Shown one piece after another: positions 1,469-17,791 of a DNA stretch of 56,216 nucleotides. Position numbers and translations under genes: made by a program. Within the stretch, counting starts at the first letter, position 1. Each line of letters begins with the position of its first letter. The notes beneath the pieces were generated by a model. It was given only the letters and a program-made list of their open reading frames with translations, was not told the origin of the DNA and ran no database searches. Source of the stretch: Thermoguttaceae bacterium (lineage in GTDB: Bacteria; Planctomycetota; Planctomycetia; Pirellulales; Thermoguttaceae); contig JARKPK010000028.1 in assembly GCA_029975295.1 (NCBI GenBank), positions 1 to 56,216 on the forward strand, given 5' to 3'.

Positions 1469-2563
1469 TCAATTCGCCTCGGCCAACAACGCAGCAAAAC
1501 CGGCCGTGGTTCGACATTCGAACCCGCCATCAACGCGAACGATCAACAGGACATCCAGCCCGTTTTGCTCGGCCGTGCGCATGGCCTGCTCGGGGCCGAG
1601 CACGCTCAGCGCCGTGGCCCAGGCGTCAGCCGTCATGCACGAGGAATGAATCACGCTGACCGAAGCCAGTTGATGATCGATCGGCCGACCGGTGCGGGGA
1701 TCGATCAGGTGGCAGTAGCGACGCCCCTCGATCTCACGGTAATTGCGATAGTCGCCGGAAGTGGCCAGCGACGCTTGCCGAAGCCGGACCGCGCGAAAGA
1801 CGGTGCGCGCGTCGGGACGCGGTGTCTCGATGGCAATCGTCCACGGCACGCCGGCGGCATTATTGCCCCGGGCTCGCACCTCTCCGCCAATCTCGACCAT
1901 GTAGTTTTCCACCCCGGCCGCTTCGAGCACCTCGGCCGCACGATCGACGCCGAAGCCTTTCGCAATCGCCGAGAGATCAACCGAGCCCCCGGCAATCCGC
2001 CGGCGCACTCGCGGGGGATTTGTTTCCACGTCCACGCGTTGGTAATCCACCAGTGCCCGAGCCGCCGCCAACCGCTCGGGCGACGGAGAGGCCGCCTCGG
2101 CCGACGCAGCGCCTGGGCCGAACTTCCACAGCTTGACCAACGGCCCAACGGTAACGTCAAGGGCTCCATCACTGAGCCGACTGATGCGCAGCGCCTCGGC
2201 CACCACCCGCGCGGTGTCGGCCGACACGCCAAACCAATCCTCGCCGGCGGCATTCCATCGCGAGAGTTCCGAGTTCGGGTCGTAGGTGGACATTTGCCGA
2301 TTGACTTCCATCAGGGCTTCGTCCACCAAGCGTTTCAACTGGGCAGCCGACACCTCGGGGGGAAGCTGCGTCAGCTTCACCGTATAGGTTGTGCCCATCG
2401 TTTCTCCGTGAAAGGCGACGGGGTCGGCCGAACGCCACGACGAGCGGATCAACCACGCCGACGCGGCGAGCAGAAGCACGGCCACCAGAGCCAACGACCC
2501 GCCCGACCGGCGCCGGCCGCTGTCATGCGCGCCAGTGGATTCAACGCGATCGCTGTTCGACAT
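1469..2563 (-). CDS. apbE: ApbE family FMN transferase (NQR flavinylation)
   Basis: The product has 364 residues. ApbE attaches FMN from FAD through a phosphoester bond to a Thr in NqrB and NqrC, outside the cytoplasmic membrane. The protein has an N-terminal hydrophobic anchor at about residues 23-40, then GETMGTTYTVK (the typical family start), a central TVGPLVKLWKFG segment and GSVDLSAIAKGFGVDRAAE, the conserved ApbE core. ATG 2563 is chosen because AAGGG lies six bases upstream and it follows the nqrF stop by 61 bases; a longer frame would run back into nqrF. Its place at the end of the nqr operon matches its role in maturing NqrB and NqrC. Confidence 0.95.
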   Translation of the reverse strand: MSNSDRVESTGAHDSGRRRSGGSLALVAVLLLAASAWLIRSSWRSADPVAFHGETMGTTYTVKLTQLPPEVSAAQLKRLVDEALMEVNRQMSTYDPNSELSRWNAAGEDWFGVSADTARVVAEALRISRLSDGALDVTVGPLVKLWKFGPGAASAEAASPSPERLAAARALVDYQRVDVETNPPRVRRRIAGGSVDLSAIAKGFGVDRAAEVLEAAGVENYMVEIGGEVRARGNNAAGVPWTIAIETPRPDARTVFRAVRLRQASLATSGDYRNYREIEGRRYCHLIDPRTGRPIDHQLASVSVIHSSCMTADAWATALSVLGPEQAMRTAEQNGLDVLLIVRVDGGFECRTTAGFAALLAEAN

Positions 2564-2624
2564 TTCAAGCCCTTTCGGTCGCTTCGGCAGGGCGCCGCGG
2601 CAGGCGCGTGCCGCCCGCGGCAGA

Positions 2625-3854
2625 TCAACCGCCGAAATCGTCAAACAAGATATTTTCGCGTTCCACTCCCAAGTTGTCGAGCAATTGCAAAACGGCCTTG
2701 TTCATCATCGGCGGACCGCACAGGTAATACTCGCAGTCCTCCGGGGCAGGATGGTTCTTCAGGTAGTTCTCGTAGAGAACCTGGTGAATAAAGCCGGTCG
2801 GCCCGGTCCAACGATCCTCCGGCTTGGGCTCGGAAAGGGCCAAGTGCCATTGGAAGTTCGGGTATTGCTCGGCCAAGGCGTTGAAGTCGTCAACATAGAA
2901 TGCTTCGCGGAGGCTCCGTGCGCCGTACCAGAACGAGATTCGCCGCCGCGATCCCCGCCGCCGCAGCAAATCGAACACATGCGAGCGGAGCGGCGCCATG
3001 CCCGCCCCGCCGCCGATGTAGATCATTTCCGCCTCGGTTTCGCGCGGGTGGAAGTCGCCGTAGGGGCCCGACACCAAAACTCGATCGCCGGGCTGAAGGC
3101 TGAACAAATAGCTCGACATGATGCCCGGCGGGGCGTCCGCCTTCTGCGCCGGCGGCAAGGCGATCCGCACGTTGAGCATCACCACCCCGCGCTCGTCGGG
3201 ATAATTGGCCATCGAGTACGCGCGAATGGCCCGTTCGCGCGTGGCCATGCGATAGCGCCAAAGGTTGTAGCGGTCCCACTCGTCGCGGAACTGGGGATCG
3301 ACCTGGAAGTCGCGGAACGACAGATCGTAGGGCGGGCATTGAATCTGGATGTAGCTGCCCGCTCGAAACTCGAAATTTTCCTCGGGCGGCAGTTCGAGCA
3401 CGAGTTCTTTGATGAACGTCGCCACATTGCGGTTCGAGCGCACCGTGCACACCCATTGCCGCACGCTGAGGATCTCCGGCGGGATCACGAGCTTCATGTC
3501 TTGCTTGACCGCCACCTGGCAGGCCAGTCGAACGCCGGTGCGAATCTCCTTCCGCGACATGAAGGCCGCCTCGGTGGGCAGCACGTCGCCGCCGCCGGCA
3601 ACCACTTTCACTTTGCATTGCCCGCAGGTGCCTCCGCCCCCGCATGCCGATGGCACAAAGATTTGCCGCTCGGCCAACGTATGCAGCAGCTTGCCCCCGG
3701 GCGAAACGAGCAACGTCCGCTCGGGATCGCCGTTGATTTCGATGCGCACTTCGCCTTGCGGCATCAGAAAAAGCCGCGCGGAGAGAATCAACACGACCAA
3801 GACCAGCACGATCAAGGTGAACATCGCGACGCCGGAAACGATTTCGATCAGCAT
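2625..3854 (-). CDS. nqrF: Na+-translocating NADH:quinone reductase subunit F
   Basis: The product has 409 residues, the usual NqrF length. It is the NADH-oxidising subunit: NADH to FAD, then to a 2Fe-2S cluster and into the membrane subunits. One N-terminal membrane helix spans about residues 5-28. The plant-ferredoxin-type cluster ligands are C71, C77, C80 and C112, with the expected family spacing. A ferredoxin-reductase module follows with [11 protein letters not shown] (FAD), [12 protein letters not shown] (NADH) and a C-terminal [12 protein letters not shown] 3854 has AAGGGA six bases upstream. The gene lies 91 bases after nqrE and 61 before apbE, within one operon. Confidence 0.98.
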
Positions 3855-3945
3855 GTTCGTCCCTTTCGCACTCGGTAATCGGCGCACGCCAACAATCTCG
3901 ACTCGCCCCTGTTGCGGCCGGCCGTCGGCCGCCCGGGCGCCTGCC

Positions 3946-4557
3946 CTACAGTTGAATCCCCGAAAAGCACATGAACGCCAAAGCGATCAGCCCGACGGTG
4001 ATAAAGGTGATCCCCAGGCCTTCGAGCCCGCCGGGAACTCGGGCGTAGCTGAGCTTTTCGCGCACGGCCGCCAGAACCATGATCGCCAGGGCCCAGCCCG
4101 CTCCGGAACCGATGCCGTAAGTTACGCTTTCGGCGAAGGTGTAGTCGCGTTCCACCATGAACAACGACCCGCCGAGAATCGCGCAATTGACCGTGATCAG
4201 CGGCAGGAAGATGCCCAGGGCGTTGTAGAGCGACGGGAAGTAGCGATCGAGCACCATTTCCAGAATCTGCACCATCGCGGCAATCACGCCGATGAAGCAG
4301 ATCAACGAAAGAAACGACAGGTCGATCTCCCCCAGCCCAAATCGCTCCAGCGCGCCGGGGCGGAGCAAGTAGTGTTGCAAAAGGTTGTTGATCGGCACCG
4401 TAACGGCTTGCACAACCAGCACGGCAATGCCCAGCCCGGTGGCTGTGCCGACCCGTTTCGACACAGCCACATAGGTGCACATGCCGAGAAAGAACGCCAG
4501 CGCCAAGTTCTCGACGAACATCGAGCGAATCAGCAGGCTCAGGTGATGTTCCCACAT
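3946..4557 (-). CDS. nqrE: Na+-translocating NADH:quinone reductase subunit E
   Basis: The product has 203 residues and is almost entirely membrane-embedded, with about six hydrophobic helices. NqrE pairs with NqrD to hold an iron centre inside the membrane and to form part of the sodium path. It begins [20 protein letters not shown] and has [15 protein letters not shown] in the first third; GMCT carries one of the conserved cysteines, and a second is in [12 protein letters not shown] 4557 is preferred because AGGAG lies eight bases upstream; a TTG two codons earlier is less likely. The 153-base gap to nqrD is the longest in the operon. Confidence 0.98.
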
Positions 4558-4710
4558 GCGCAATACTCCTCTACGGCGGTGTCGATCAAACGGCCGCGTC
4601 GAGCGATCGCTTGACGGACCGGCGAGCGAACAAGCACGGCAGCGTCCGAAAGGCCCGCTTCGCTCGATCTTCGGCCGGCGCCCGCCATCGCGTTGCCTCT
4701 GTACGAAACG

Positions 4711-5331
4711 TTAGTGTTCTTTCACATATCCCCGTTGCCAGCGATTCAGCGCCCAAATCGCCATGCCGATCAGGAAGAACGCGCTGGGCGCAAGCAGCAT
4801 CAGACCGTTGGGCATATACCAGCCGCCCTCGGCAATGGTGGGCAGCACGGTGAACCCGAGCAGTGTGCCGGCGCCGAACAACTCGCGCGTCGCGCCCACC
4901 GCCAGAAGAACGATGCTGTACCCCAGGCCGTTGCCCAAGCCGTCGAGCAGGCTCGCCCATGGCCCGTTTTTCATGGCGAACGCCTCGGCCCGCCCCATCA
5001 CAATGCAGTTGGTGATGATCAGGCCGACAAACACCGAGAGCTGCTTGCTGATGTCGTAGGCGAAGGCTTTGAGGAACTGATCGACAACGATCACCGCCGA
5101 GGCGATCACGGTCATTTGCACAATCATGCGGATGCTGCCCGGTATCTGCCGGCGCAGAAGCGAAATGACCACGTTGGAAACCGCCACGACAAACGTCACG
5201 GCCAGGCTCATCGTCAATGCCGTCGAGAGCTTGGTAGTCACCGCCAGCGCCGAGCAGATGCCCAACACCTGCATCGCCACCGGGTTGTTGCGAAAGACGG
5301 GATCGATCAGCGGTTTCAATTGCGATTTCAT
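4711..5331 (-). CDS. nqrD: Na+-translocating NADH:quinone reductase subunit D
   Basis: The product has 206 residues and about six hydrophobic helices. It is the homologous partner of NqrE, and together they coordinate an intramembrane iron site between the NqrF cluster and the NqrC flavin. The start [30 protein letters not shown] and the central [18 protein letters not shown] are diagnostic; the cysteines in LGICS and TNCIV are the expected pair. ATG 5331 fits the family N-terminus. The gene lies 74 bases downstream of nqrC on the same strand. Confidence 0.98.
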
Positions 5332-5405: not shown

Positions 5406-6236
5406 TCAGCCAGCCGGCCGGGCCGAGCCATGTTCGGCATGTTCGGCGGGTGCGGCGGGTGCGGAGTTCTCCGCCCGAAGCCGTTCGAGCAGCGGGCCGA
5501 AGCCCTGCTCGCCCAGCCAGAATCGCAACAGGTTGGTCACTCCGTTGCCGGTAAGCGTCGCCCCCGACAGCCCATCGACCTGATGGACGGCGTCGGGCGA
5601 ACCGGCATCAACGGCGCCCTTGACCACTTCGAGGCGGGGGCGTCCTTGGGCGTCGAACGCCTTCTTGCCGATCCACAGTGCCTTCCAGCGAGGATTATCC
5701 ACTTCGCCACCCAGCCCGGGCGTTTCGCCGTGGGCGAAGAACGCGAAGCTTTCGATGGTGTTCAGGTCGGGCCCCAGCGCCGCCAGCCCCCACATCGTCG
5801 ACCACAACCCCTTGCCGCGCACCGGAAGAATCACTCGTTCCAGCCGGCCGTTTTGGCGCAGCAGGTAAACCAACTCGTATCGCCCGCGGCGTTTCAACCC
5901 GGCCAAGTCTTCGGTTGGCGAAAGCACCCGGCTGGTTTTCGAATCGCGTTGGAAGGCGACGGAATCGAAGGTTTCCGGATCCATGCCGCCGACCGCCATT
6001 CCCGTGTCGAGATCGATCACCTGCGTTTCAATGCGGCCGAACAGCGCGTCGATGTCGGCCTGCGCGTTCTCATCGATCAGCCCGGCGGCGAGCAACACGT
6101 TCCGCTTGCGGTCCCATGCCCGGTTGCGCTCTTGCAGGGGCCGCAGGGCCACCGTTGCCGCCGAAACCAGCATCGAGCAGACCAAGCAGACGATGGCCGC
6201 GGTGGCCAAAGTGCGGAGAAAGGAATCGCTACGCAT
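5406..6236 (-). CDS. nqrC: Na+-translocating NADH:quinone reductase subunit C
   Basis: The product has 276 residues. NqrC is anchored by one N-terminal helix (about residues 8-30) and has an extracytoplasmic FMN-binding domain. The flavin is attached to Thr227 in the motif DGLSGATLT, the ApbE target sequence. A second family block, [19 protein letters not shown], is present. The C-terminus ends in an Ala/Pro/His-rich tail of about 20 residues that looks dispensable. The start ATG (6236) overlaps the end of nqrB by eight bases, indicating translational coupling. Confidence 0.98.
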
Positions 6237-7521
6237 GGCGGAGGGCCCTCCGGCGAAGATGCGCCTGAACCACGTAGTGATCGATCAACGGCGCCGTTAC
6301 GTTGCCGAATAGGATCGCCAGCATCGTCCCTTCGGGAAACGCCGGATTGACCACGCGAATCAGCACAACCATTGCGCCGATCAACAGGCTGTAAATCCAT
6401 TGGCCGGTCGGCGTCATGGCCGCTGTCACCGGATCGGTGGCCATGAACACCAGCCCAAAGGCCAAGCCGCCGGTCACCAAATGCCAGTGCGGAGGCATGG
6501 AGAACATGGCGTTCGTTTCGCTGCCCAGCGCGAAGAACAGCGAAGCCAAGGCCATGGCGCCGATGAGCATGCCCGTCATGATCCGCCACGAGCCGATTCC
6601 CGTGGCCACCAGCACGATCGCCCCGAGCAAACAGGCCAGGGTCGATGTTTCTCCCATCGAGCCGGGAATGGTTCCGAGGAAGGCGTCGAGCCAGCCGGTT
6701 TGGGCCGTAACCGCCGCCATGCCGCCGGTTGCGCCGGCGCTAAGCGGCGTGGCTCCGCTAAAACCGTCGGCCGCCACCCACACGGCGTTGCCCGAGATTT
6801 GCCCGGGATAGGCGAAGAACAGGAACGCGCGGGCAGCCAGCGCCGGGTTCAGGAAGTTCCGCCCCGTTCCGCCGAACAGTTCTTTGGCGAACACCACGCC
6901 GAAGGAAATGCCCACGGCCACCTGCCACCAGGGAATGCCCGGCGGCAGCGTCAGCGGAAAGAGCAGTCCGGTGACGAAGAACCCCTCGTTCACCTCATGC
7001 CGCCGCAGCACGGCAAAGAGCACTTCCCAACCGAGGCCGACGGCCATCGTCACCAAATAGACCGGCGCGAAATAGAGCGCGCCGAGCAAAAAGTTGGCCC
7101 AAAGACTGTGCGGATCGTGCCGGGCGCCGAGGGCTTTCAGCACAACGCTGCGCCAGCCCAACGGAGCAGACGTCTGCTCGGATTGCGCCGCGCCCCGCTC
7201 AGCGGTCGCGTCCGCGTTCGGCCGTTGGCCGGCGTCGTCCGACTCGGCCGCAGATGTGCTCCTCGCGGCAAGCACGCGATGGGCCTGAAGCCCGGTGTTG
7301 TAGCAGGCCATGAGCACGCAAGGCACAAGCGCCACGAGCACGACGCTCATCATCCGCTTGTAGTCCATGCCGTCGCGGACGTGGCACGAACCGTCGGCGG
7401 TTTCGCCCGGCGTGTAGAAGAAGGTATCGACAACCTCGTAAACAGGATACAAACGCTCCAGCGGCTTGCCTTTGCCGAACAAAGAAGCCATCCGATCGAG
7501 GATGAAGCGGAGGGGTCGCAT
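6229..7521 (-). CDS. nqrB: Na+-translocating NADH:quinone reductase subunit B
   Basis: The product has 430 residues and about ten membrane helices. NqrB is the main sodium-conducting subunit and binds covalent FMN, riboflavin and quinone. The flavinylation motif is GFSGATPLS with Thr258. Family blocks include [18 protein letters not shown] near the N-terminus and [17 protein letters not shown]. An Ala/Ser/Asp-rich stretch at about residues 86-118 is probably a loop expansion relative to proteobacterial NqrB. ATG 7521 has AAGGAC six bases upstream. The gene lies 68 bases after nqrA and overlaps nqrC by eight bases. Confidence 0.98.
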
Positions 7522-7589: not shown

Positions 7590-9023
7590 CTATTCCTCCC
7601 GCTCAATCGCCATCAGCACGCGGCGAAGCATGGCGCCGTAGTCTTGCTTGCCCGGGCAAACATAGCTGCACAATGCGAGGTCTTCTTCCACCAGTTCCAA
7701 AGCGCCTAGCGCCTCGGCTTGTTCGAGATCGCCGTTTTCCAAAGCACGAAGCAAGAAGTTGGGCAACACGTCCAACGGCATCACCTTCTCGTAGCTCCCC
7801 ACAGGAAACACCGCCCGACGGCCGCCGCCCAACGACGGAGTCATGGCAAAACGGCGATGGGCGGCCCATGCGCCCAGAGTGACCCCTTGCACCGAGTGCT
7901 TGTCGGCGCCGGGTCTGAGCCAGCCGAACAACTCGCGCGGGCCGGCGGCGGGCAACACGCTGATTTGCAGATCGTAGCGCCCCAAATAGGCCGTGGGCCC
8001 TTGGGCCGCGCGTCCGCCGAGCACGGAACCGGAAACCACGCGGTGCTCGCCGTCGGCCAGTTCGCCGTCGAGCAGTTGATTCAGCTCGGCGCCAATACGT
8101 GTCCACAACAGGCGGGGGCGAAGCACGCTGGGGCCACCCAGGGCGACCACCCGCTCGACGTCCAGCCGACCCGTGGTGAACAGCCGACCGATGGCCGCCA
8201 CGTCTTGATAGCCGATGTGCCACGCCATGCGATTCCGGCCGGCCGGCGCCAAAAAGTGGATGTGGGTTCCCGGCAAACCGGCCGGATGCGGGCCGGCAAA
8301 CGCCACCGAGGTCCAGCCGGCCGTATCCATGCCGGGAATCGACTCGCCGGGCCGCACGCACAGGAACCTCCGCTCGGCGCCGAGGCGCGCCAGCACGCGC
8401 AAGCCATTGGCGAAATCGGCTTCGCGTTCCGCCAGAACAACCTCGGGCCGGGCGCCGAGCGGGTGGGTGTCAATCGCCGTAACCAGCAACGCGTGGGGAC
8501 TGGTCCGCGGCGACGCGATCCGACCGAAAGGCCGCGTCCGCAGCGAGGTCCAAAGCCCCGACATCAATAGAATGCGACGGACCTCGTCTTCACACAATTC
8601 ATCGATTTCTCGGTCGTCGTAAACCGGAAAGCCAACGCTCTGATCGCCGGAAATCTCGATGACCAGCGAAACAAAACTCCGTTTCTCGCCGCGATTGATC
8701 TGGCGGACCACGCCCGCCGCCGGCGACGTGAACCGAACTTCCGGCATTCGTTTATCGGTCCAAAGCACCTGGCCCAACGCCACCTGATCGCCCACTTGAA
8801 CCGCCAACGAAGGCCGCATGCCCACGTAGTCGGGCCCCACCAAGGCCACCCGATCCACGGCCGCCGCCGTTTCGATCCGCTGCTCGGGCTCGCCGCTGAT
8901 GGGCAGGTCTAACCCGCGCCGTATCGTGATCGTTTTCGAGGCAACCGCCGCGGGGCGACGCGTTCGGAGCTTCGACGCCAGAATGTCGGACAGTACGGAA
9001 ACGCCCCCCAATGGACGATGCAT
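7590..9023 (-). CDS. nqrA: Na+-translocating NADH:quinone reductase subunit A
   Basis: The product has 477 residues and is the peripheral subunit, related to RnfC and NuoF but without cofactor motifs. Recognisable blocks are ITIRRGLDLPISGEPEQ near the N-terminus, DYVGMRPSLAVQVGDQVALGQ, FTSPAAGVVRQINRGEKR (a hammerhead-like lipoyl fold) and the C-terminal ELVEEDLALCSYVCPGKQDYG. ATG 9023 is chosen; the frame runs 22 codons further upstream without a recognisable start. No strong ribosome site is seen. It is the first gene of the nqr operon, 267 bases after the sensor-island response regulator, so it could be read from its own promoter or by read-through. Confidence 0.97.
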   Translation of the reverse strand: MHRPLGGVSVLSDILASKLRTRRPAAVASKTITIRRGLDLPISGEPEQRIETAAAVDRVALVGPDYVGMRPSLAVQVGDQVALGQVLWTDKRMPEVRFTSPAAGVVRQINRGEKRSFVSLVIEISGDQSVGFPVYDDREIDELCEDEVRRILLMSGLWTSLRTRPFGRIASPRTSPHALLVTAIDTHPLGARPEVVLAEREADFANGLRVLARLGAERRFLCVRPGESIPGMDTAGWTSVAFAGPHPAGLPGTHIHFLAPAGRNRMAWHIGYQDVAAIGRLFTTGRLDVERVVALGGPSVLRPRLLWTRIGAELNQLLDGELADGEHRVVSGSVLGGRAAQGPTAYLGRYDLQISVLPAAGPRELFGWLRPGADKHSVQGVTLGAWAAHRRFAMTPSLGGGRRAVFPVGSYEKVMPLDVLPNFLLRALENGDLEQAEALGALELVEEDLALCSYVCPGKQDYGAMLRRVLMAIEREE

Positions 9024-9290
9024 ATGCGGCTCGCTTTCTAAATAGGACCGCGGAAAACGGACTGTGTCTCGATCGGCTCTGGCAGGCAAACGGCCGATTC
9101 GCCTCGCTCACGGCGGCAGGTCGGAAGGAAAGATCGCAATGTCGGAAGCCGGGGCCAATCGGGCACGGGTGCAAACAGTCTCGGTTTGCGCCCTCGTTCG
9201 CTTCCTCGATCGCGCGATCCTCTCTTTGGCGGGATGTTCAGGCAGGGAAAGGCAAAAGCACCATCACACAACAGGCAAGCCGGTTTCGCC

Positions 9291-10472
9291 TCAGCCGTCC
9301 ACCGACTGCGAGGCGGCAGGTTCACCCGCCGCCGGCAGCACGAGCGACACATAGGCGCGATCAGCGTCGCACCGCGACTCCATCGCCCCCTGGCAGCGAG
9401 CCGACCAACGACGAACCAGCGACCAGCCCAACCCGGTCGCCAACAAGTCGCTCGTCGTTGCTGCCGAAGCAGCCATTGCCAAAGCCGGTGCTGCCGAAGC
9501 AGCGGCATCGTCGCCCGACTCAACCGCAACGACTCCTTCCGCTTTCTCGACAGCCAATTCAATCTGGACCATCGGCGGCGTCTTTGCGGCCGCTACTTGG
9601 GCCCGAAGGCAACCGCCTCGACGACCCAACGCGGCCAACTTCGAACACGCCACCGATAGGGCCAGTTCCCACTCGGCGAGTTCTCCCAGACCCCATTCCG
9701 CAATCGCTGGCGGGAGCTCCAGGCCCAGCCCGCGCTGTCGCGCTTCGCCCGCGGCGAAGTCGAACGCAAAACGCATCGCTGCGTTCAGATCGATCGGCTC
9801 TTGCCGTCGGACTCGGGCGCCAGCCTCAATTTGGGCTACCATCTGAAGATCCTCGATCCATCGACCAAACACTGCCGACGTATCCTGATGCAACTGGCGT
9901 GCCGAGGATTTTTCTTCCTCACCCCCCTCCGATGGTCTGGTCTCGCCCAAATCGATCCCATTCAGATCGCCGGATGCCCGATGCCGTTGCCACGCATCGG
10001 CCATCGCCTCAATCAGCAGCAATCGCGACGTTCGCCCCTCTGCGGCCAAGCGTCGGACCTGGCGCGCTAACACCAAACGCACAGCAGCCTTGCGCACTGT
10101 GTTCCGCAGTTCGACCGGCGTAAACGGCTTGGCCAGGAAGTCGTAGGCCCCTCTCTTGGCCGCAGAAACGGCCGAGTCCATCGAAGCGTAGGCGGTAATC
10201 ATGACCGTCAGCAGACTTCGGCCCTGTTTCGACAACTCATCGAGAACGTCTAACCCACTGATACCAGGCATTTTATGATCAAGAAGCAGCAGGTCGATGC
10301 CGCCCACGGCAATCCGTTCGAGGGCCTGCTCGCCTGTTTCCGCCTGCTCAAGGACAAATCGGATGTCGCCCTCTATCTCCGGAGAAGACACTGTATAGTC
10401 GCTCAAGACACGCACGATCCCCAAGCGCATGCCCATCTCGTCGTCGGTTACCAGAACTCGTATCTCTTCCAT
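9291..10472 (-). CDS. Response regulator fused to a degenerate histidine-kinase-like module
   Basis: The product has 393 residues. Residues 1-130 form a receiver with D10-D11, phospho-acceptor D65 in LLLLDHKMPG, ITAYAS and the Lys in FLAKPFTP. The rest resembles a histidine-kinase core that has lost its catalytic parts. A helix RQLHQDTSAVFGRWIEDLQMVAQIEAG looks like the second half of a dimerisation domain. The region around ELALSVACSKLAAL lacks the N-box Asn, and only a weak G-box (TGLGWSLVRRW) remains. ATG 10472 is preferred over 10475 because of GAGG spacing. It is the third gene of the predicted NuoE-kinase-regulator unit. An output through protein interaction rather than DNA binding is inferred. 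Confidence 0.8.
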   Translation of the reverse strand: MEEIRVLVTDDEMGMRLGIVRVLSDYTVSSPEIEGDIRFVLEQAETGEQALERIAVGGIDLLLLDHKMPGISGLDVLDELSKQGRSLLTVMITAYASMDSAVSAAKRGAYDFLAKPFTPVELRNTVRKAAVRLVLARQVRRLAAEGRTSRLLLIEAMADAWQRHRASGDLNGIDLGETRPSEGGEEEKSSARQLHQDTSAVFGRWIEDLQMVAQIEAGARVRRQEPIDLNAAMRFAFDFAAGEARQRGLGLELPPAIAEWGLGELAEWELALSVACSKLAALGRRGGCLRAQVAAAKTPPMVQIELAVEKAEGVVAVESGDDAAASAAPALAMAASAATTSDLLATGLGWSLVRRWSARCQGAMESRCDADRAYVSLVLPAAGEPAASQSVDG

Positions 10473-10666
10473 CATCCCCTCGGTTGAGTCGGAGCAACTG
10501 TTGATTTCGGCGCTGCGCTTCGCCGGTGGCCGGGCAACGCCGGCGAGGCGAAAGCCGCCTGCGTTCCGGCTCGCCAAAAGCGTTCACCAAAACGCGGTGA
10601 TCGGCGCGGAAGTCCGTCGGCGGACGAGACTCCTGCCCGTTCGCCCCCAGACGGATGTCAACCGCT

Positions 10667-12652
10667 TCAGACAGTGCGCGGCAGCAATAGGGTGAACGTC
10701 GAACCGGTCGGGCCGCGCGACGCTTCGGCGTTGGATTCCACACGAATCTCGCCGCTGTGCATTTTCACGATGCCGTAGGTGACCGCAAGGCCCAAACCGG
10801 TGCCCTTGCCCATCGGTTTCGTTGTGAAGAACGGGTCGAATACCCGTTTGAGATTCTCTTCGGGAATGCCGCAACCACTGTCGGCCACGCTGACGGCCAC
10901 CCGGTTTCGATCTTCATGAACGCGAATGCTCAGCAAACCGCCTTGCGGTTCCATGGCTGCGATGGCATTGGTGATCAGGTTCGTCAATGCCTGAACGATC
11001 TGGTCGCGGTCGATCTCGGCCGTCGGATCGGTCAAGTCGCACGAAACGGCAACTTGGACATTGTTCGGAATCGGCAGACCGCGCAACGCCCGTTCCGGCA
11101 GCTCGCTCATGTCCACCGGAACCCGAACGACTTTGTTCTGCCGCGCAAAATGGAGCAACCCGGAAACGATGCGCTTGCACCGGTCAGCCTGCTCGGCAAT
11201 CATCCGCAAGTCGTCGCGCAACCGCGGATCGTCGCACGAATCGGCCAGCAGATGCGCGTACATCAGCACAATACCCAGCGGGTTGTTCACTTCGTGGGCG
11301 ATGCCGGCGGCCAACTGGCCCATGCTCGCCAATTTCTCCGACTGCACCAGCGCCTCTTGGGCGCTGGCAAGCTGCGCATGCGAATCTTCGAGCTCGCCGA
11401 TGGCCCGGCGCAAATTGTCGATCGTCTGCGGAAGGCACATCTCGCTTTCCGCCAAACCTTTGAGCACGGCCACGGCATGTTCGCGGCAGGTGTCGTATCC
11501 GCAGGCGCCGCAATTCAACTCGTCTTCGGGCCGAGTTTTGCCCATTCGGGCCAGAACGGCCGCCAGTTCGTCGCCAGGCGGGGGGATGATTCGTTGATCG
11601 TCGGGCTGGTAGCGCCGAGTCAAATCCAGCTGGGCGAATCGCCGCATTTCTTCGGCCCAGCGATGCACATCGAGCGAAGCCATGCGGGCACGAACAAACT
11701 CCCGAACGCGCCGCCGGCGATTGAACAGCGGAAGCTGGTTCTCGATGCCGGCTCCCATAATGCAGCCCTCGCAGCAAAGCGCCTCGAGCAGGGCCGCGCC
11801 CAGGTCGCCCGAGGAAAACTCTCGAATCGCCTCCAACACTCGAACGCGCCCCTGCGTGGCCACCACCTCGCCGGTGAGCAGGTCCTCGCGGATATCGCCC
11901 GCCTGCAACATTCCGCCGCTGATGGGGAACAACGCGCCGGCCCCGGCATGCGGCGGATCGAAATCGTCGGGAACAACCGCATTGGGTTGAACGCCCCGCC
12001 GCGCAAACAACTCTCGCAGCTCGACGAACGTCAGCACCGCATCCACTTCGCCTGCCAGCAATGGGTCGGCCGCCTCCGCTTTTTTAGCGATGCACGGCCC
12101 GATGAAGACCATCTTCCACTGCGATCCGCGGCGCTTCCGCAACACTCGCGCCGCGGCCACCATCGGCGAAACCACCGGGGCCAAGGCCCCAACCATGTCG
12201 GGATGATAGCGCTCCACATACGCCACAACCGCCGGACAATTCGCCGCGATATGGCGGGCGTCGCTCTCGCCGTTGAGCAGTTGTTGGTAGGCTCGGGCAA
12301 CCAAGTCGGCGCCGAAGGCCACCTCATGGACCCCGGCGAATCCGGCCGCGCGCAGCATGCCGACCAGCGTGCGGTGGTCGTATTCGACGAACTCGGCCGG
12401 AAAGCTCGGCGCCACGCAAGCCGCCACCGGGTCGCGGCCGGCGAGAAGCGTTTCGACCTCGGGCAACGAGCTGCGCACAGCCTTGGCCCCCTGCGAGCAA
12501 ACCCGCACGCAGTTGCCGCAGGCGATGCAACGCTGGGCAATCACTTTCGCCTGGCCCGAAACGATTTGGATCGCCTTGGCCGGACACTCCCGCACGCACG
12601 TGTAGCACATGCGGCAACGCTCTTCGATCGTGTAGATGAATCCTTCAGGCAT
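10667..12652 (-). CDS. [FeFe]-hydrogenase-like iron-sulfur sensor histidine kinase
   Basis: The product has 661 residues. Two 4Fe-4S ferredoxin motifs are seen (C13, C16, C19, C23 and C42, C45, C48, C52). The following hydrogenase large-subunit-like domain (about 75-320) keeps likely H-cluster ligands C139 (AANCPAVV), C187 (FIGPCIAKK), C293 and C297 ([10 protein letters not shown]). The catalytic hydrogenase motif TSCCP is reduced to one Cys, with Asn138 where the proton-relay Cys would sit. A further 4Fe-4S motif follows (C381, C384, C389, C406), then a short coiled helix. The kinase has H453 in [11 protein letters not shown], an N-box at [27 protein letters not shown] and GTGLGLA. There is no membrane segment, so this is a cytoplasmic sensor. 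The signal (H2 or redox state) is inferred from the domain. Confidence 0.93.
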
Positions 12653-12736: not shown

Positions 12737-13291
12737 TCAACAGTCGGTATCTTCGTCGTCTTCGCGCTCGCCGGGCGAATCCGCCCCCGCCTGACGCCGA
12801 TAACATGCGACGATCTGCTCCACCGCCTCGGGCGAAACATGCGCATGAAAGGCGCCGTTGACGCACACCGCCGGCGAAAGGCTGCACGCCCCAATACAGT
12901 CCACCGCTTCGAGGCTGAACAGCCCATCGTCCGTTGTTTCACCCGGCAGTATGCCCAAGTGGCGTTGGAGCTCGGCAAGCACCGCCCCCGATCCCTTCAA
13001 GTGGCAGGCGGTGCCCCGACAAACCTGCACGTGGAACCGCCCCACCGGCTGAAAACGAAACGGACGATGCAACCTTGCCAAATTGTACACTTGGCCCGGC
13101 GGAAGACCGAAGTGCCCTGCGATCCGCCGAATCGCTCCTCGCGGAAGGTAACCGTACAATTCCTGTACCGCGTGCAATGCCGGCACCAACAAGGCGCGGT
13201 CGGTGGCACCAAATTGAGCGAGTATCTTCGATTCCCGCGTCAACATCGGGTTTCTTCTCGGTTTGTTCCGAGTCATGGTTCGCGTTGCCAT
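12737..13291 (-). CDS. NuoE/HydC-like 2Fe-2S thioredoxin-fold protein
   Basis: The product has 184 residues, of the 24-kDa subunit type found in complex I and in electron-bifurcating hydrogenases. A helical N-terminal part (ILAQFGATDRALLVPALHAVQELYGYLP) is followed by the thioredoxin-like domain with cluster ligands C91 and C96 (VCRGTACHLKG) and C132 and C136 (DCIGACSLSP). The C-terminus is an acidic tail. The start at 13291 lacks a clear ribosome site; ATG 13276 or 13246 is possible. It lies 84 bases upstream of the sensor kinase on the same strand and no NuoF-like partner is present. A role delivering electrons to the kinase clusters is inferred. Confidence 0.93.
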   Translation of the reverse strand: MATRTMTRNKPRRNPMLTRESKILAQFGATDRALLVPALHAVQELYGYLPRGAIRRIAGHFGLPPGQVYNLARLHRPFRFQPVGRFHVQVCRGTACHLKGSGAVLAELQRHLGILPGETTDDGLFSLEAVDCIGACSLSPAVCVNGAFHAHVSPEAVEQIVACYRRQAGADSPGEREDDEDTDC

Positions 13292-13993
13292 ATTGCTGAA
13301 AGGCTCTGTGTCCGACGAGTCGGACTCGATCGCAAGTTGATTGTTTGTTGCTGCTCACAAAAATCATCCGAAAACCGCCGGGCCACAACGCCGGCTCGGC
13401 CCCGGGAAACGGCTGGGAATGCCCGCGGTGAAAAAACCGACGGACATTCAACGCCCGATCAATGCAACGGCGCTCGAAGGGGAACGCTCGCCGTATTCTG
13501 CGGCTCTACGCGGTGGCTCAATGCTGGGTGATGCACGCCGCGTACCAATTCACCGGCGAATCGCGAGTCATCGGCCGCGAACCTTCCAGCAGAAGGGATG
13601 AATCTGCAGCCGTCACCGCTTCGTACGAGGTCTCAACTCTTTGCTAAGGAACCGTTTCCGTCGCACGGCCGACGCCTTTGGCCGGACGTTCCGCCAGAAT
13701 TCCTGCCGCCCGGGCCGTTTGTTCCCCGAATTCACCCGAAACCGCACGGCCTGCGGCCAAGAGCCTTTTCACCCAACGGCTGGCCAACCTTGGGCTGCGC
13801 GCCGGTTCGTCCGCCCGCTGCCCGGAAACACTGCATTGACCACCCGATTGGACCGCAACCGTCTTTGATGTATGATGGCTTCATACAGTCAGCCGTGCCG
13901 CCTCGATATGCCGCGAACGGCCGCCTGATTGGTCGGCATCCCTTTGAAAAACACCCTGTCGGGGACACCTCGGGCGACACCCGCGGAGGACGC
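13292..13993. other. Divergent intergenic region of the sensor island
   Basis: About 700 bases between the divergently read NuoE-like gene and the sigma-54 activator gene. Apart from the sigma-54-like site at 13532-13547 no conserved protein or RNA is recognised. The frame of the activator stays open back to 13598, but its translation there is Pro/Arg-rich and not receiver-like. Confidence 0.5.
13532..13547 (-). promoter_or_regulatory. Sigma-54-like promoter for the NuoE-kinase-regulator operon (candidate)
   Basis: The reverse strand reads TGGTACGCGGCGTGCA. GG and GC are separated by exactly ten bases, as in -24/-12 promoters; it differs from the consensus TGGCACG-N4-TTGCA at two positions. 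The start of transcription would be near 13521, about 230 bases before the NuoE-like gene. The sigma-54 activator gene next door makes it plausible. Confidence 0.5.
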
Positions 13994-15427
13994 ATGAACG
14001 GCGAAGACAACCGCGACGAGCTGCCCCCCATCACGCCGACCACCGGCCGAGTTCTGGTCATCGACGACGAATTGCCGCTTGGGTTGAGCTGTCGCCGCGC
14101 ACTCTCCTCGGAGGGCTACGACGTGGTTGTCGAAAGCGATTCGGAGGCCGGATTGCAGACGGCCATCTCCGGCGAGTTCGACATCGTGCTGCTCGACTTG
14201 ATGATGCCCAAGCTCGACGGGCTCGAATTGCTCCGTCGGCTCAAGGCGGCCGGGGTGGCTTCGGAAGTGGTGATTATCACCGCCTTCTCCACGCTGGAAA
14301 CGGCGGTGGAAGCCATGCGTTTGGGGGCGGCCGACTATCTCGGCAAGCCGTTCACACCGGCCGAGTTGCGGATGACAATCGACAAGGTGGCCCAACGTTC
14401 GGCACTCATTCGTGAAAACCAGGCGCTGCGACGCGAGTTGGAGGTCGCCCAAGGCTTCGAGGGGATGATCGGCCGCAGCCGGGCCATGGAACGCGTCTTT
14501 TCGCTGGTCAAACGAGTGGCCCCAACCGACGGCACGGTGTTGATCACCGGCGAAAGCGGGACGGGCAAGGAGATGATCGTTCAGGCGCTTCATCGCCTAA
14601 GCCCCCGAAAGAACAGGCCGTTGCTGGCGTGTGATTGCAGCGCGCTGGCCTCGACACTGCTGGAAAGCGAACTTTTCGGCCATGTGAAGGGCGCGTTTTC
14701 CGGGGCGATTGCTTCGAAACAGGGGTTGTTCGAGGCGGCCCATCGCGGCACGCTCTTTCTCGACGAAGTGGCCAACCTCAGTTGGGAAACGCAGGGCAAG
14801 CTTCTCCGGGTGCTCGAGACGAAACGCGTTCGCAAGGTCGGCGATACGGCCGAGCACGAGGTTGAAATCCGGCTCGTGGCGGCCACCAACCGCTCGTTGG
14901 CCGAGATGGTGGCCGAAAACACGTTCCGCGAGGATCTCTACTACCGATTGAACGTTGTGCCGATCGAGCTTCCCCCACTCCGCGAACGCCGCGGCGATAT
15001 CCCGTTGCTGGCCAACTCCTTTCTGACGCGATTGACTGAGAAGATGAACCTCGATGTCCGCGGGTTCACGCCCGAGGCTATGGCCCACCTGGAAAGCTAC
15101 CACTGGCCCGGCAACGTCCGCGAACTGCGGAACATGATCGAGCGCATCGCGATTCTTTGCGACAGCCCCCGAGTCGAAATTCGCCACTTGCCGCGCGAAA
15201 TCCGCGAATCGCCGCCCGGCTCGGCCGTCAGCCGCTTTCCGGAAAGTTGGGACGAATTCCGCCAAATCAAGAACAATGCGGCCCAACAGGCGGCCGCCGA
15301 TCTTGAACGCCAATACCTGACCGAAATACTGGCGCGTTGCGAAAACAACGTGAGCAAGGCCGCGCAACTGATCGGCATGCGCCGCCCCAATCTGCATGCA
15401 TTGCTCAAGAAGCACGGCCTGCGCTGA
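13994..15427 (+). CDS. Sigma-54-dependent response regulator (NtrC family)
   Basis: The product has 477 residues. The receiver (about 18-135) has D24-D25, phospho-acceptor D68 in VLLDLMMPKLDG and the Lys in LGKPFTP. The AAA+ domain follows with Walker A GESGTGKE (186-193), the sigma-54 contact loop GAFSGA (233-238; usually GAFTGA), LFLDEVANL and the RLNVVPIELPPLRERR block. The C-terminus (about 445-477) is a Fis-type helix-turn-helix, NNVSKAAQLIGMRRPNLHALLKKHGLR. ATG 13994 follows GGAGGA closely and gives the normal N-terminus. It is divergent from the sensor-kinase operon and upstream of a perfect sigma-54 promoter, so it probably activates that promoter when phosphorylated by the nearby kinase. 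Confidence 0.95.
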   Translation: MNGEDNRDELPPITPTTGRVLVIDDELPLGLSCRRALSSEGYDVVVESDSEAGLQTAISGEFDIVLLDLMMPKLDGLELLRRLKAAGVASEVVIITAFSTLETAVEAMRLGAADYLGKPFTPAELRMTIDKVAQRSALIRENQALRRELEVAQGFEGMIGRSRAMERVFSLVKRVAPTDGTVLITGESGTGKEMIVQALHRLSPRKNRPLLACDCSALASTLLESELFGHVKGAFSGAIASKQGLFEAAHRGTLFLDEVANLSWETQGKLLRVLETKRVRKVGDTAEHEVEIRLVAATNRSLAEMVAENTFREDLYYRLNVVPIELPPLRERRGDIPLLANSFLTRLTEKMNLDVRGFTPEAMAHLESYHWPGNVRELRNMIERIAILCDSPRVEIRHLPREIRESPPGSAVSRFPESWDEFRQIKNNAAQQAAADLERQYLTEILARCENNVSKAAQLIGMRRPNLHALLKKHGLR

Positions 15428-15578: not shown

Positions 15579-16003
15579 GCCGACAGCGGCTTGCCGTCCA
15601 ATCATTCACTGTCTTCTGCCGCTAGACATGTTTTGCCCGACCGTACGCCAGAACATCGGCCCTTCGGCGGCGTCCGAATCGCCTCGCAACAACCCCAAAG
15701 ATGTTGGAGCTGACGGGTTGCCGCTAGACCTGACGAGGCTTCGACTAGCCAAAGTGCGGCCTGGGCCCCATTCCGACTGATCGGCGGCGCCCGCCGTCCG
15801 TTCGACTTCAGGGGCAACCTCAGTGAGGGCAGCCCACCATCCTCTAATGTCGTTAGGCCTGCTGTTGGTCAAGCGAAGCTGCACTCGCGAAATCGCGTTT
15901 CCCTTCTGCCGTGCCATGTTTGGCTGTCGGCCGCAGCGAAAAGTCGCTCGCCCGAAAACAATCGGCCCAAAAAATCGCAGCGAATTCCCGACAGCGTGCG
16001 ATA

Positions 16004-16019
16004 TGGCACGAGCTTTGCA
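16004..16019 (+). promoter_or_regulatory. Sigma-54 (-24/-12) promoter
   Basis: The sequence TGGCACGAGCTTTGCA matches the consensus TGGCACG-N4-TTGCA at every defined position, with GG and GC separated by ten bases. Transcription would start near 16030, about 190 bases before the ATG at 16220. It lies between a sigma-54 activator gene and the response regulator it most likely controls. Confidence 0.85.
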
Positions 16020-16219
16020 GAATCGATTCACCGCATCGCCGAAGCGCGGAGGCGGCGGCGCGAGCGTTTCGAGAAACTACTGCGCCGCGGCCGACCGCAG
16101 CGCTTTCGTCGGCTCGCAAATCCAATCGACGGTCGAGAGAAGTCCACCGCCTATCCATCCCAAGAGTCCCCGAACCGACATTCCACGAAGGACCAATTCT
16201 AATCCCGAGGAGCTACGTC

Positions 16220-17791
16220 ATGTTGGCAGAACCCCGCTTGCTGGTTGTTGACGACGAGGAACTGTACTGCGAGGCTTGCCGACGCATCTTCTCGCGGCAA
16301 GGATTCGTCGTCGAGAAGAGTCAGGACGCGCGCCGCGGATTGGAGCTGGCCGAGTCGAACGACTACTCGGCGATCTTGCTCGACGTGCGAATGCCCGAGA
16401 TGGATGGGCTCGAGTTCCTTCGCAATTTGCGATCGACCAAGCCCGACGTTCCGGTCATCTTGATGACGGGCTTTCCGACGATTCCCGGCGCAGCCAGCGC
16501 CGTGCGGCTGAAGGCGTCGGACTACGTCACCAAGCCGTTTACTCCCGAAGAGATCACCCAGGCGGTGCGGAACCTGCTCAATCGCGGCAAACCGGCGCCG
16601 GTGGCCGCCGGCGCCGCCGATCCCTGGACGCCCGCCTCGTCGGAAGTGCGTTTCCTGGGCCGAAGCTGGGCGCAGCCCGGTGTGGACACCACCTTCCGTG
16701 TCGGCGCCGTATTGCCGCGCAGCCGGGTGGGCAACAGCATGGCCGCCACGCTGCCGCGCATCGGCGAAGTGGTGTATCGCGGCCTGCCGCTCATGGATCT
16801 GAACATTGCCGGCGATCCGTGCCGCGTGGCCGTCTCGCCGCTTTCGGGCGTCGTGGTGGCCGTCAATCCGGCCGTGGCCGATCATCCGGAACTGCTCTGG
16901 TCGCGCCCGTGCAGCGACGGCTGGGTGGCCGCCATCGCGCCGACTCGGCCCGAAGAGCATTGGAACCTCTGCCGCCCGCGCAACGTCATTCTCGTCAGCC
17001 GCGATTCGACCGCTGCCGGCGTCCAGGCTCGGCAGTTGGCCGAGTTGGGCTGCCGCGTGCGCATCGAAGCCGATGCCGCCGCGATGGTTGCCGCCGCGCT
17101 GAACGACGAACAGCCCGTGCTGATTTTCGACGAGGCCTCGCTGGGCGCCTATGGCCCGGCCTGGGCCGAACGGGTGAAAATGACCGTGCCGGCCGCGAAG
17201 ACGCTCGTGCTCGGCGCCGACAACAGCCCGTGGGAAACGGCCTATCGGCAGCAGAAGATATTCTTCTACGCCATTCGGCCCTTCGAAGATTACGAGATCA
17301 CCGAAGTGCTCGACGCCATGTTTTGCCCGGGCGCGCGATCGGCCGCTCCCGAGGCGGCACGCTCGCCCTCGGAGCCGATGCGGGGCATCCTCGTCCGCAA
17401 CCATCAGGGCCGCAAGATCTATTTGGCAGCCTTCGACGGCGCGCTCCGCGCCCATCGCGGCCTGGGCTGCGCCATCCGCAAACGGCTGCTCGACCGCTTG
17501 CTGCCCATCGAAACCTATCTGGGCGACAAGCCGTTCGATCCGGCCGAAACGCTGAAAACGGCCAAGACGGTCGATCACCTGTTCGCTCTGATGGTGAAAG
17601 ACATGGGCCGCATCCCCGGCACGCTCGTCCGCGAGCAGGAGAACCATGCCGGATGGACGGAGGGCCGCGGCTCGAACATTACAGTTTGGCACATTCAGCC
17701 CGAGGCGCAAGGCCCACGGCTCGAAGGCCTGCCGCTGGCAACGATCGAAGGTTTGGCCGATCTGATCGTCGAAGAAATTGCCAATGCGTGA
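16220..17791 (+). CDS. Response regulator with GcvH-like domain and uncharacterised C-terminus
   Basis: The product has 523 residues. Residues 5-120 are a receiver (D11-D12, phospho-acceptor D55, T83, K105). Residues of about 150-250 resemble the glycine-cleavage H protein (RVGAVLPRSRVGNSMAATLP, IGEVVYRGLPLMDL, SPLSGVVVAVNPAV, DGWVAAIAP), but the stretch that normally carries the lipoyl Lys reads AGDPCRVAVS and has no Lys, so lipoylation is unlikely. Residues of about 258-370 look like a second, degenerate receiver (NVILVSRDSTAAGVQ, VLIFDEASLG, AIRPFEDYEI). The last 140 residues are unrecognised. ATG 16220 has GAGGAG eight bases upstream. Control by sigma-54 is predicted. No DNA-binding domain is seen, so its output is unknown. 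Confidence 0.88.
   Translation: MLAEPRLLVVDDEELYCEACRRIFSRQGFVVEKSQDARRGLELAESNDYSAILLDVRMPEMDGLEFLRNLRSTKPDVPVILMTGFPTIPGAASAVRLKASDYVTKPFTPEEITQAVRNLLNRGKPAPVAAGAADPWTPASSEVRFLGRSWAQPGVDTTFRVGAVLPRSRVGNSMAATLPRIGEVVYRGLPLMDLNIAGDPCRVAVSPLSGVVVAVNPAVADHPELLWSRPCSDGWVAAIAPTRPEEHWNLCRPRNVILVSRDSTAAGVQARQLAELGCRVRIEADAAAMVAAALNDEQPVLIFDEASLGAYGPAWAERVKMTVPAAKTLVLGADNSPWETAYRQQKIFFYAIRPFEDYEITEVLDAMFCPGARSAAPEAARSPSEPMRGILVRNHQGRKIYLAAFDGALRAHRGLGCAIRKRLLDRLLPIETYLGDKPFDPAETLKTAKTVDHLFALMVKDMGRIPGTLVREQENHAGWTEGRGSNITVWHIQPEAQGPRLEGLPLATIEGLADLIVEEIANA

Follow-up and report, generated by a model that had tools for sequence, protein, structure and literature searches.

A Probable Hydrogenase-Like Sensor Joined to a Histidine Kinase, with a Contracted P3 Motif and a Rewired Neighborhood, in a Thermoguttaceae Bacterium

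Introduction

A named class of [FeFe]-hydrogenases, group C1 of HydDB, is entered as 'histidine kinase-linked (putative)' in the accessible text of its description (PMC5037454). For Hydrogenedentota, the accessible part of one report describes group C1 proteins carrying HATPase_C and group C3 proteins (BfuT sub-type V) carrying a kinase domain, with 21 of the 53 C1 genes, and almost every C3 gene, located beside bifurcating hydrogenase genes; the motifs P1–P3 were hardly found in the C1 proteins by its authors (PMC11406978). The manner in which sensory [FeFe]-hydrogenases transfer their signal is treated as an open question in the available portion of PMC8163306. No experiment on any member with a fused kinase was found in the literature searched.

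Here, we analyzed a hydrogenase-like gene in a stretch of 56,216 nucleotides from a Thermoguttaceae bacterium (assembly GCA_029975295.1, contig JARKPK010000028.1), hereafter referred to as the window. The encoded protein, HydS/HK, was compared with its relatives in residue conservation, P3 motif, gene neighborhood, and candidate promoters.

Sequences and Alignments

Residues were counted in a 99-sequence alignment composed of 79 of 80 sampled loci, the window, and the best 19 non-window places obtained when 392 genomes of the phylum were searched with a profile; L077 was left out of the 80-locus sample before counting because of its broken frame. The 80-locus sample was drawn partly by the pattern CCEGC, and the remaining 20 rows, including the window, were gathered without it. 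The frequency of CC was therefore judged on the pattern-free sample, which carries a mild bias towards CC, as profile A1 of the search was built from four rows that were all CC.

The tree was built from 91 rows after removing the P3 columns and position 138, leaving out the mis-framed L141, L143, and L147. In an earlier tree set, the rows of a Bacteroidota side branch (see below), HydA, and nine group C proteins were picked largely by their P3 pattern, and thus the P3 of these rows is circular in that set. Neighborhood counts cover 100 loci, window included.

Architecture and Distribution of HydS/HK

The reading frame was recovered as an earlier note on this DNA had described it, on the minus strand with 661 amino acids and cysteines at 139, 187, 293, 294, and 297 (Table 1). 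The note's label of a sensory hydrogenase-like protein without the proton-relay cysteine was sound; the fused histidine kinase, the contracted P3, and the neighborhood had gone unmentioned.

Table 1. Positions of the genes, motifs, and candidate promoter sites in the window.
Feature	Position	Strand	Basis
apbE	1469..2644	minus	
nqrF	2625..3887	minus	family match
nqrE (Rnf-Nqr membrane subunit)	3946..4563	minus	named from place in operon
nqrD	4711..5331	minus	family match
nqrC	5406..6236	minus	family match
nqrB	6229..7521	minus	family match
nqrA	7590..9089	minus	family match
REC domain and degenerate histidine-kinase half	9291..10577 (start probably near 10475)	minus	only receiver scores in Pfam
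HydS/HK, hydrogenase-like sensor fused to histidine kinase, 661 aa	10667..12652	minus	Pfam domains, AlphaFold2, Foldseek
HATPase_c domain with N, G1, F, and G2 boxes	10676..11011	minus	
Phospho-acceptor His453 of HisKA	11294..11296	minus	domain match and box alignment
C-terminal Fe-S motif Cx2Cx4Cx16C (C381, C384, C389, C406), PF04060	11435..11512	minus	
Contracted P3, C293-C294-E-G-C297 (CX2C)	11762..11776	minus	alignment
P2: C187, flanked by G185 (CpI M353 position) and K190 (K358 position)	12092..12094	minus	alignment
P1: Asn138 (CpI C299 position) and ligand-type C139	12236..12241	minus	alignment
Two N-terminal [4Fe-4S] motifs, C13/16/19/23 and C42/45/48/52	12497..12616	minus	motif and alignment
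NuoE/HydC-like [2Fe-2S] protein, probably a kept subunit of a hydCBA operon	12737..13291	minus	PF01257, 1.4e-42
Weak sigma-54-like site, two mismatches, upstream of the NuoE gene	13532..13547	minus	not significant
NtrC-type sigma-54 activator with receiver, divergent	13598..15427 (start probably near 13994)	plus	Pfam
Receiver and H-protein-like (GCV_H) protein	15911..17791 (start probably near 16220)	plus	
Perfect sigma-54 site (-24/-12), preceding the receiver/H-protein-like gene	16004..16019	plus	

The H-domain matched PF02906 at 1.1e-42, indicating the fold of the [FeFe]-hydrogenase H-domain. The kinase half matched HisKA (2.1e-14) and HATPase_c (1.5e-25) in the Pfam scan, and its H, N, G1, F, and G2 boxes were all intact, as in a two-component sensor kinase. 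As the same scan returned no membrane-type domain, HydS/HK is apparently soluble. The AlphaFold2 model, based on 35 aligned sequences, had a mean pLDDT of 87.6 and a pTM of 0.66; in it, a single helix (residues 407–472) runs from the Fe-S motif to the kinase, with low confidence over about 421–460. In a Foldseek search against the PDB, the top matches were [FeFe]-hydrogenases (1.8e-20 for the Desulfovibrio desulfuricans hydrogenase), and the first kinase among the matches was ZraS (2.4e-18).

Two [4Fe-4S] motifs, an H-domain, and a Cx2Cx4Cx16C motif make up the layout of group C (M2f), and HydS/HK has all of them. The Ser or Thr of group D (M2e) at the CpI M353 position is replaced by Gly, a group C trait that was found in 99 of 99 aligned sequences (G185). 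The PAS domain that belongs to group C was absent from HydS/HK in the Pfam scan at an E-value of 0.001.

Metagenome-assembled genomes of planctomycetes are the closest named relatives, and identity to relatives reaches 68%. The distribution is patchy: copies that are full-length or nearly so were listed in four of the 60 genomes around the window's own, namely its own genome, G006, G015 (two copies), and G035. Loci with a kinase-fused sensor include members of Planctomycetota, Bacteroidota, Actinomycetota, Hydrogenedentota, Sumerlaeota, and Caldisericota.

A Contracted P3 Motif

The earlier note had assigned the four H-cluster ligands to C139, C187, C293, and C297, and had regarded C294 as the unusual extra cysteine. 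Three of these assignments held, and the roles of the two adjacent cysteines were exchanged. C294 and C297 were present in 99 of 99 sequences, always in CX2C spacing, and position 293 varied (Cys in 86, Phe in 8, and Ala in 5; or 8, 8, and 4, respectively, among the 20 rows outside the pattern sample). Profile–profile alignments, whether global or local and whether against group A HydA or group C rows, consistently put C294 on the first P3 cysteine with a one-residue deletion directly after it; the target rows were chosen by their CX3C pattern, which fixes the motif and leaves the gap placement free. Because C294 and C297 are invariant, position 293 is variable, and the profiles align C294 with the first P3 cysteine, the alignments indicate that C294 is the ligand-type cysteine and that C293, at the CpI Ala498 position, is the extra one. 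The candidate of C293 as P3 ligand was rejected on these counts and alignments, and that of CC as a peculiarity of the window gene was rejected as well, since CC is common in the clade. The four H-cluster cysteines of P1, P2, and P3 are C139, C187, C294, and C297, each found in 99 of 99 sequences.

[FeFe]-hydrogenases typically have CX3C spacing in P3 (CPGGC), and HydS/HK has CX2C. Judged from the sequences, the P3 of the whole sampled clade is CX2C, one residue shorter than CPGGC. In the same loci and with no picking by P3, CX2C was found in 81 of 81 kinase-bearing ORFs, and 87 of the 89 other ORFs with a hydrogenase domain had CX3C; the two exceptions were one side-branch copy and one truncated ORF, and 31 side-branch ORFs were counted apart. 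On the 91-row tree, the short P3 required one change, and its rows formed one side of a branch with an SH-aLRT support of 91, below the mark of 95. When the three mis-framed rows were included, the eight deepest planctomycete sensors were left unjoined to the remaining kinase-fused rows.

In TamHydS, E289 and L291 (CpI M497 position) precede the P3 ligand according to the accessible text of two studies (PMC10407848, PMC11803613). The spacing E290-x-L292-x-C294 of HydS/HK fits this numbering, which would place E290 at the E289 position. Neither the shortened P3 nor the Asp/Thr/Ser/Pro variation described below was mentioned in the literature searched, which lay largely outside subscription journals. 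We regard the shortened P3 and the fused kinase as the more interesting facts about this protein than the loss of the relay cysteine.

The Proton-Relay Position

The translated ORF confirmed that Asn138 stands at the position of the relay cysteine (CpI C299) of group A catalytic hydrogenases. The earlier reader was right about this loss and about its precedent in sensory hydrogenases, but it is already known: TmHydS and TamHydS both have Ala there according to the available text of PMC10407848. Across the 99 sequences, position 138 was Asp in 61, Thr in 18, Ser in 9, Pro in 8, Asn in 2, and Ala in 1, numbers that count sequences (mostly from Bacteroidota) and not events; on the 91-row tree, 12 changes at this position were found among 54 family rows. 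Asn138 was rejected as a clade-defining change, as the sampled sequences most often have Asp here and the ORFs of the Bacteroidota side branch usually have Asn.

For CaHydA, the accessible portion of the report on a screen names C298D as the only variant with high activity and lists C298N with the negative clones (PMC3485046). On this basis, turnover by the window protein is expected to be slower than that of relatives with Asp, provided that these turn over in the first place.

H-Cluster Occupancy and Maturation

We infer that HydS/HK holds an H-cluster. P82, S83, S162, P163, G185, C187, and K190, as well as C139, were found in 99 of 99 sequences, and A81 in 98. K190 is at the CpI K358 position, presumably a contact of a CN ligand; more generally, we take P82, S83, S162, P163, A81, and this Lys to contact the CN ligands of [2Fe], so that they would be useless for a plain cubane. 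The 31 ORFs of the Bacteroidota side branch keep the short P3 in 24 cases and have Asn at the relay position in 27, have lost the first P3 cysteine in 7, and retain the Lys in none. As the side branch lacks this Lys in 31 of 31 ORFs, its retention in the kinase-fused family looks selected. The side branch also shows that Asn can go along with decay of the site, and this counts against the window copy. It should be added that a P3 one residue short might not hold a bridged [2Fe] site.

The side-branch ORFs (e.g., L064:3314-5170 and L094:3538-5427) are divergent hydrogenase-domain paralogues on the minus strand, upstream of Bacteroidota operons, and at most a weak PAS match was seen in the two that were scanned. 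They are possibly sensors without a diiron site.

The earlier note had proposed a search for the maturases HydE, HydF, and HydG, and all three were found in the genome, with HydG and HydE on contig C95 and HydF on contig C146; HydE was identified by TIGR03956 (324.5 bits, cut-off 254.6). The check is weak because the genome encodes two HydA besides its two sensors, and these catalytic-type enzymes need maturases anyway. HydA-like genes were likewise found in most of the 22 planctomycete genomes with a sensor. HydG was found in 19 of these 22, and no HydG was found in G073, G090, and G152 (76, 90, and 86% complete, respectively). G090 and G152 belong to one family, and both had HydA and a sensor and no HydG candidate in a first look. 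In G329 (77% complete), the sole Fe_hyd_lg_C genes found were two HydS/HK genes, one of which shares its contig with HydG. Among the 68 loci whose downstream sequence extends for 6 kb or more, HydG, HydE, and HydF were found within 12 kb of the sensor in 47, 30, and 18, respectively.

The second sensory hydrogenase of the window genome (L031:11407-13494, contig G000:C82) is of the PAS type with a CX3C P3, and it adjoins HydCBA with a canonical TSCCPAW. The HydA on contig G000:C80 (L001), in the gene order hydB-hydA-nuoE, reads TSCSPGW, with the relay cysteine kept and the usual ligand cysteine changed to Ser. Ser at the ligand place of P1 is common in BfuA sub-types according to the accessible text of PMC11406978.

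Gene Neighborhood

The usual order across the loci was hydC-hydB-hydA-sensor-REC/kinase, often with hydG downstream. HydA was encoded on the same strand at most 6 kb upstream of the sensor in 75 of the 85 loci with at least 2.2 kb of upstream sequence; the ten scored without HydA include the window, L057, which has one below the threshold, and L153 and L154, which have one on the other strand. A REC/kinase gene was located downstream in 74 of the 77 loci with at least 4 kb, counting the degenerate copy of the window. In Bacteroidota operons (L054, L100, L102, L073, L084, and others), the relay cysteine of HydA itself is often replaced by Ala or Asp (e.g., VSACPAW, TGDCPAW).

The window departs from this order. 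The NuoE/HydC gene lies directly upstream of the sensor, and in the whole window, the sole match to HydB was the sensor's ferredoxin part, and nothing but the sensor itself matched HydA. The best match of the NuoE/HydC protein was the HydC of the L043 sensor operon (165 bits), compared with 115 and 105 bits for the HydC proteins on contigs C82 and C80 of its own genome. As it is closer to the HydC of sensor operons, the simplest reading of these sequences would be the loss of hydBA from a sensor operon. The REC/kinase protein was colinear with the intact L030 protein at 36% identity, and its H-box and G-box were absent. It is the only one of 82 full-length copies without both kinase motifs, which the 81 others have; a frameshift was rejected as the cause because the gene is one colinear frame. 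The local circuit is rewired in that hydB and hydA are missing beside the sensor and the REC/kinase protein has no kinase motifs.

Downstream of the degenerate REC/kinase gene, the window continues with nqrA-F and apbE. The sensor adjoins nqr genes in two of the 100 loci, the window and L048 (on a contig of G015, from the same planctomycete family). A terminator scan gave terminator-like sites at the chance level.

NtrC-Type Regulator and Sigma-54 Sites

NtrC-type genes, 64–65% identical to that of the window, were also found beside the sensor in L029/L048, L030/L042, and L044. The perfect sigma-54 site of the window was matched by none of 200 shuffles of the upstream region, and shuffling the window in its entirety gave a perfect site in 9 of 100 cases. 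The receiver/H-protein-like gene was also found with a perfect site in L030/L042 and L029/L048 (0 of 200 shuffles each for L030 and L048). The two-mismatch site before the sensor operon of the window was equaled or bettered in 15 of 200 shuffles. The hydC operon of L030 had a perfect site (0 of 200 shuffles), and sites with one mismatch precede the L044 operon and the L048 sensor (2 of 200 shuffles each).

In 59 of 61 other hydC operons with upstream sequence, no site with at most one mismatch was found, and the opposite-strand control gave such sites in 0 of 61. Sigma-54 control as a general property of the clade was thus rejected. The two exceptions, L042 and L044, are both planctomycete loci with an NtrC neighbor; therefore, the sigma-54 wiring is a trait of the NtrC-bearing planctomycete branch.

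The lipoyl-lysine of the receiver/H-protein-like protein looks lost in all three aligned copies. A link of this protein to H-cluster maturation is conceivable, because lipoyl-H-protein participates in H-cluster maturation in the accessible text of PMC12752695.

Interpretation

The domains, motifs, and gene neighbors of HydS/HK, and the sigma-54 site before the receiver/H-protein-like gene, were observed directly in the sequence. We favor the reading, at a probability of about 0.62, that HydS/HK is a soluble one-piece H2 or redox sensor kinase that signals to a receiver, the NtrC-type activator, and sigma-54 promoters. In this mechanism, an H-cluster built by the HydEFG of the genome would be held by C139, C187, C294, and C297, and H2 would be bound or slowly turned over there. 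The redox state would be relayed by the [4Fe-4S] clusters near the N-terminus, for which the NuoE protein may be the electron partner, and the signal would then run via the C-terminal Fe-S cluster into the long helix bearing His453. The kinase would phosphorylate a receiver, and the NtrC-type activator would fire sigma-54 promoters. As its kinase motifs are lost, the degenerate REC/kinase protein could presumably serve only to accept phosphate or draw it off. This would leave the sensor to signal straight to the NtrC receiver, or else to control the neighboring nqr genes or the hydrogenases encoded at other places in the genome.

Other readings start from the same evidence. Eukaryotic Nar1 has the H-domain fold with only a [4Fe-4S] cluster, and HydS/HK could likewise be a redox sensor without [2Fe], whose H-domain holds only a [4Fe-4S] cluster on the CX2C pair, C139, and C187 and whose kinase reads the redox state of the cell, not H2. 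The contraction of P3 across the whole sampled clade points this way, as do the unconstrained relay position (Pro in 8 of 99), the 3 of 22 genomes in which HydG was not found, and the short-P3 side branch, which has lost the Lys in 31 of 31 ORFs and the first P3 cysteine in 7. We nevertheless consider it unlikely, since the kinase-fused family keeps the Lys, P82, S83, S162, and P163 in 99 of 99 sequences and A81 in 98; the proximity of HydG to the sensor, seen in 47 of 68 loci, argues in the same direction, although these operons serve HydA too.

Improbable, by our estimate, is that the cassette is a decaying remnant on its way out of the genome, with hydBA lost, the REC/kinase broken, and Asn138 in place. 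Such decay would account for the one REC/kinase among 82 full-length copies without both motifs, for the lack of HydB and of any HydA besides the sensor in the window, and for Asn being also the residue of the degenerate side branch; but the sensor is encoded at full length, none of its cluster cysteines or kinase boxes is lost, its identity to relatives reaches 68%, and the NtrC neighbor has been kept, with a perfect sigma-54 site before the next gene. We give very little credence to a slow hydrogenase that, with the adjoining NuoE, would form a small NADH-linked enzyme in place of a sensor. TamHydS still turns over slowly without the relay cysteine, as the accessible text has it (PMC8163306), and the NuoE gene does adjoin upstream; yet the NADH/FMN subunit HydB is absent from the window, the fused kinase is intact, and the C298N result in CaHydA, in the portion of the source available, was negative (PMC3485046).

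Most likely, then, HydS/HK belongs among the sensory hydrogenases already known as group C, and it is marked by an unusual P3 and by the rewiring of its local circuit. A more far-reaching view, which we hold only tentatively and think doubtful as a whole, is that of a multi-phylum clade of one-piece H2-sensing kinases with a short P3 (CX2C, often CCxGC), a freely varying relay residue, and a new coordination geometry of the H-cluster tuned for signaling, in this case uncoupled from its hydrogenase and placed beside a Na+-pumping NADH dehydrogenase (nqr). Because the H-domain, the Fe-S module, and the kinase share a single chain, hydrogen signaling could become directly testable in one tube. 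The clade is also a natural experiment on the protein needs of the H-cluster, combining P1 variants (Asp, Thr, Ser, Pro, Asn, and Ala) with a short P3, and the sigma-54 sites are candidate output promoters.

Comparison with Known Systems

The kinase core and the adjoining sigma-54 activator resemble those of ZraS/AtoS-type kinases with an NtrC-type partner. The AtoS model matched HydS/HK at 6.7e-59, but its 199.8 bits are far under the cut-off of 646. Unlike these kinases, HydS/HK has an Fe-S/H-domain module as its input.

TmHydS (group C, M2f) and TamHydS (group D, M2e) share the layout and the loss of the relay cysteine with HydS/HK, and the replacement of M353 by Gly is that of TmHydS, according to the available text of PMC8163306. 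At the M497 position, the alignment made here gives HydS/HK a Leu, as in TamHydS (PMC10407848, PMC11803613, as far as accessible). TmHydS has a PAS domain and HydS/HK has none, and the accessible parts of these reports describe a fused kinase for neither TmHydS nor TamHydS.

As in group C1, a hydrogenase-like putative H2 sensor is tied to a histidine kinase, in HydS/HK by fusion. In the C1 reports from Vallitalea (PMC6163223) and Cloacimonadota (PMC8542988), in the text available, the kinase is a separate gene, whereas in HydS/HK both are one polypeptide. The C1 and C3 proteins of Hydrogenedentota, in the accessible part of their report, have a fused kinase-type domain like HydS/HK (PMC11406978), but the window copy differs in having no adjacent hydBA. 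BfuT genes lie beside bfuA/hydA, and the window holds no HydB and no HydA but the sensor itself. If the clade is that of the Hydrogenedentota C1 proteins, its contracted P3 would explain why the search for the C1 motifs failed in the part of that report available (PMC11406978).
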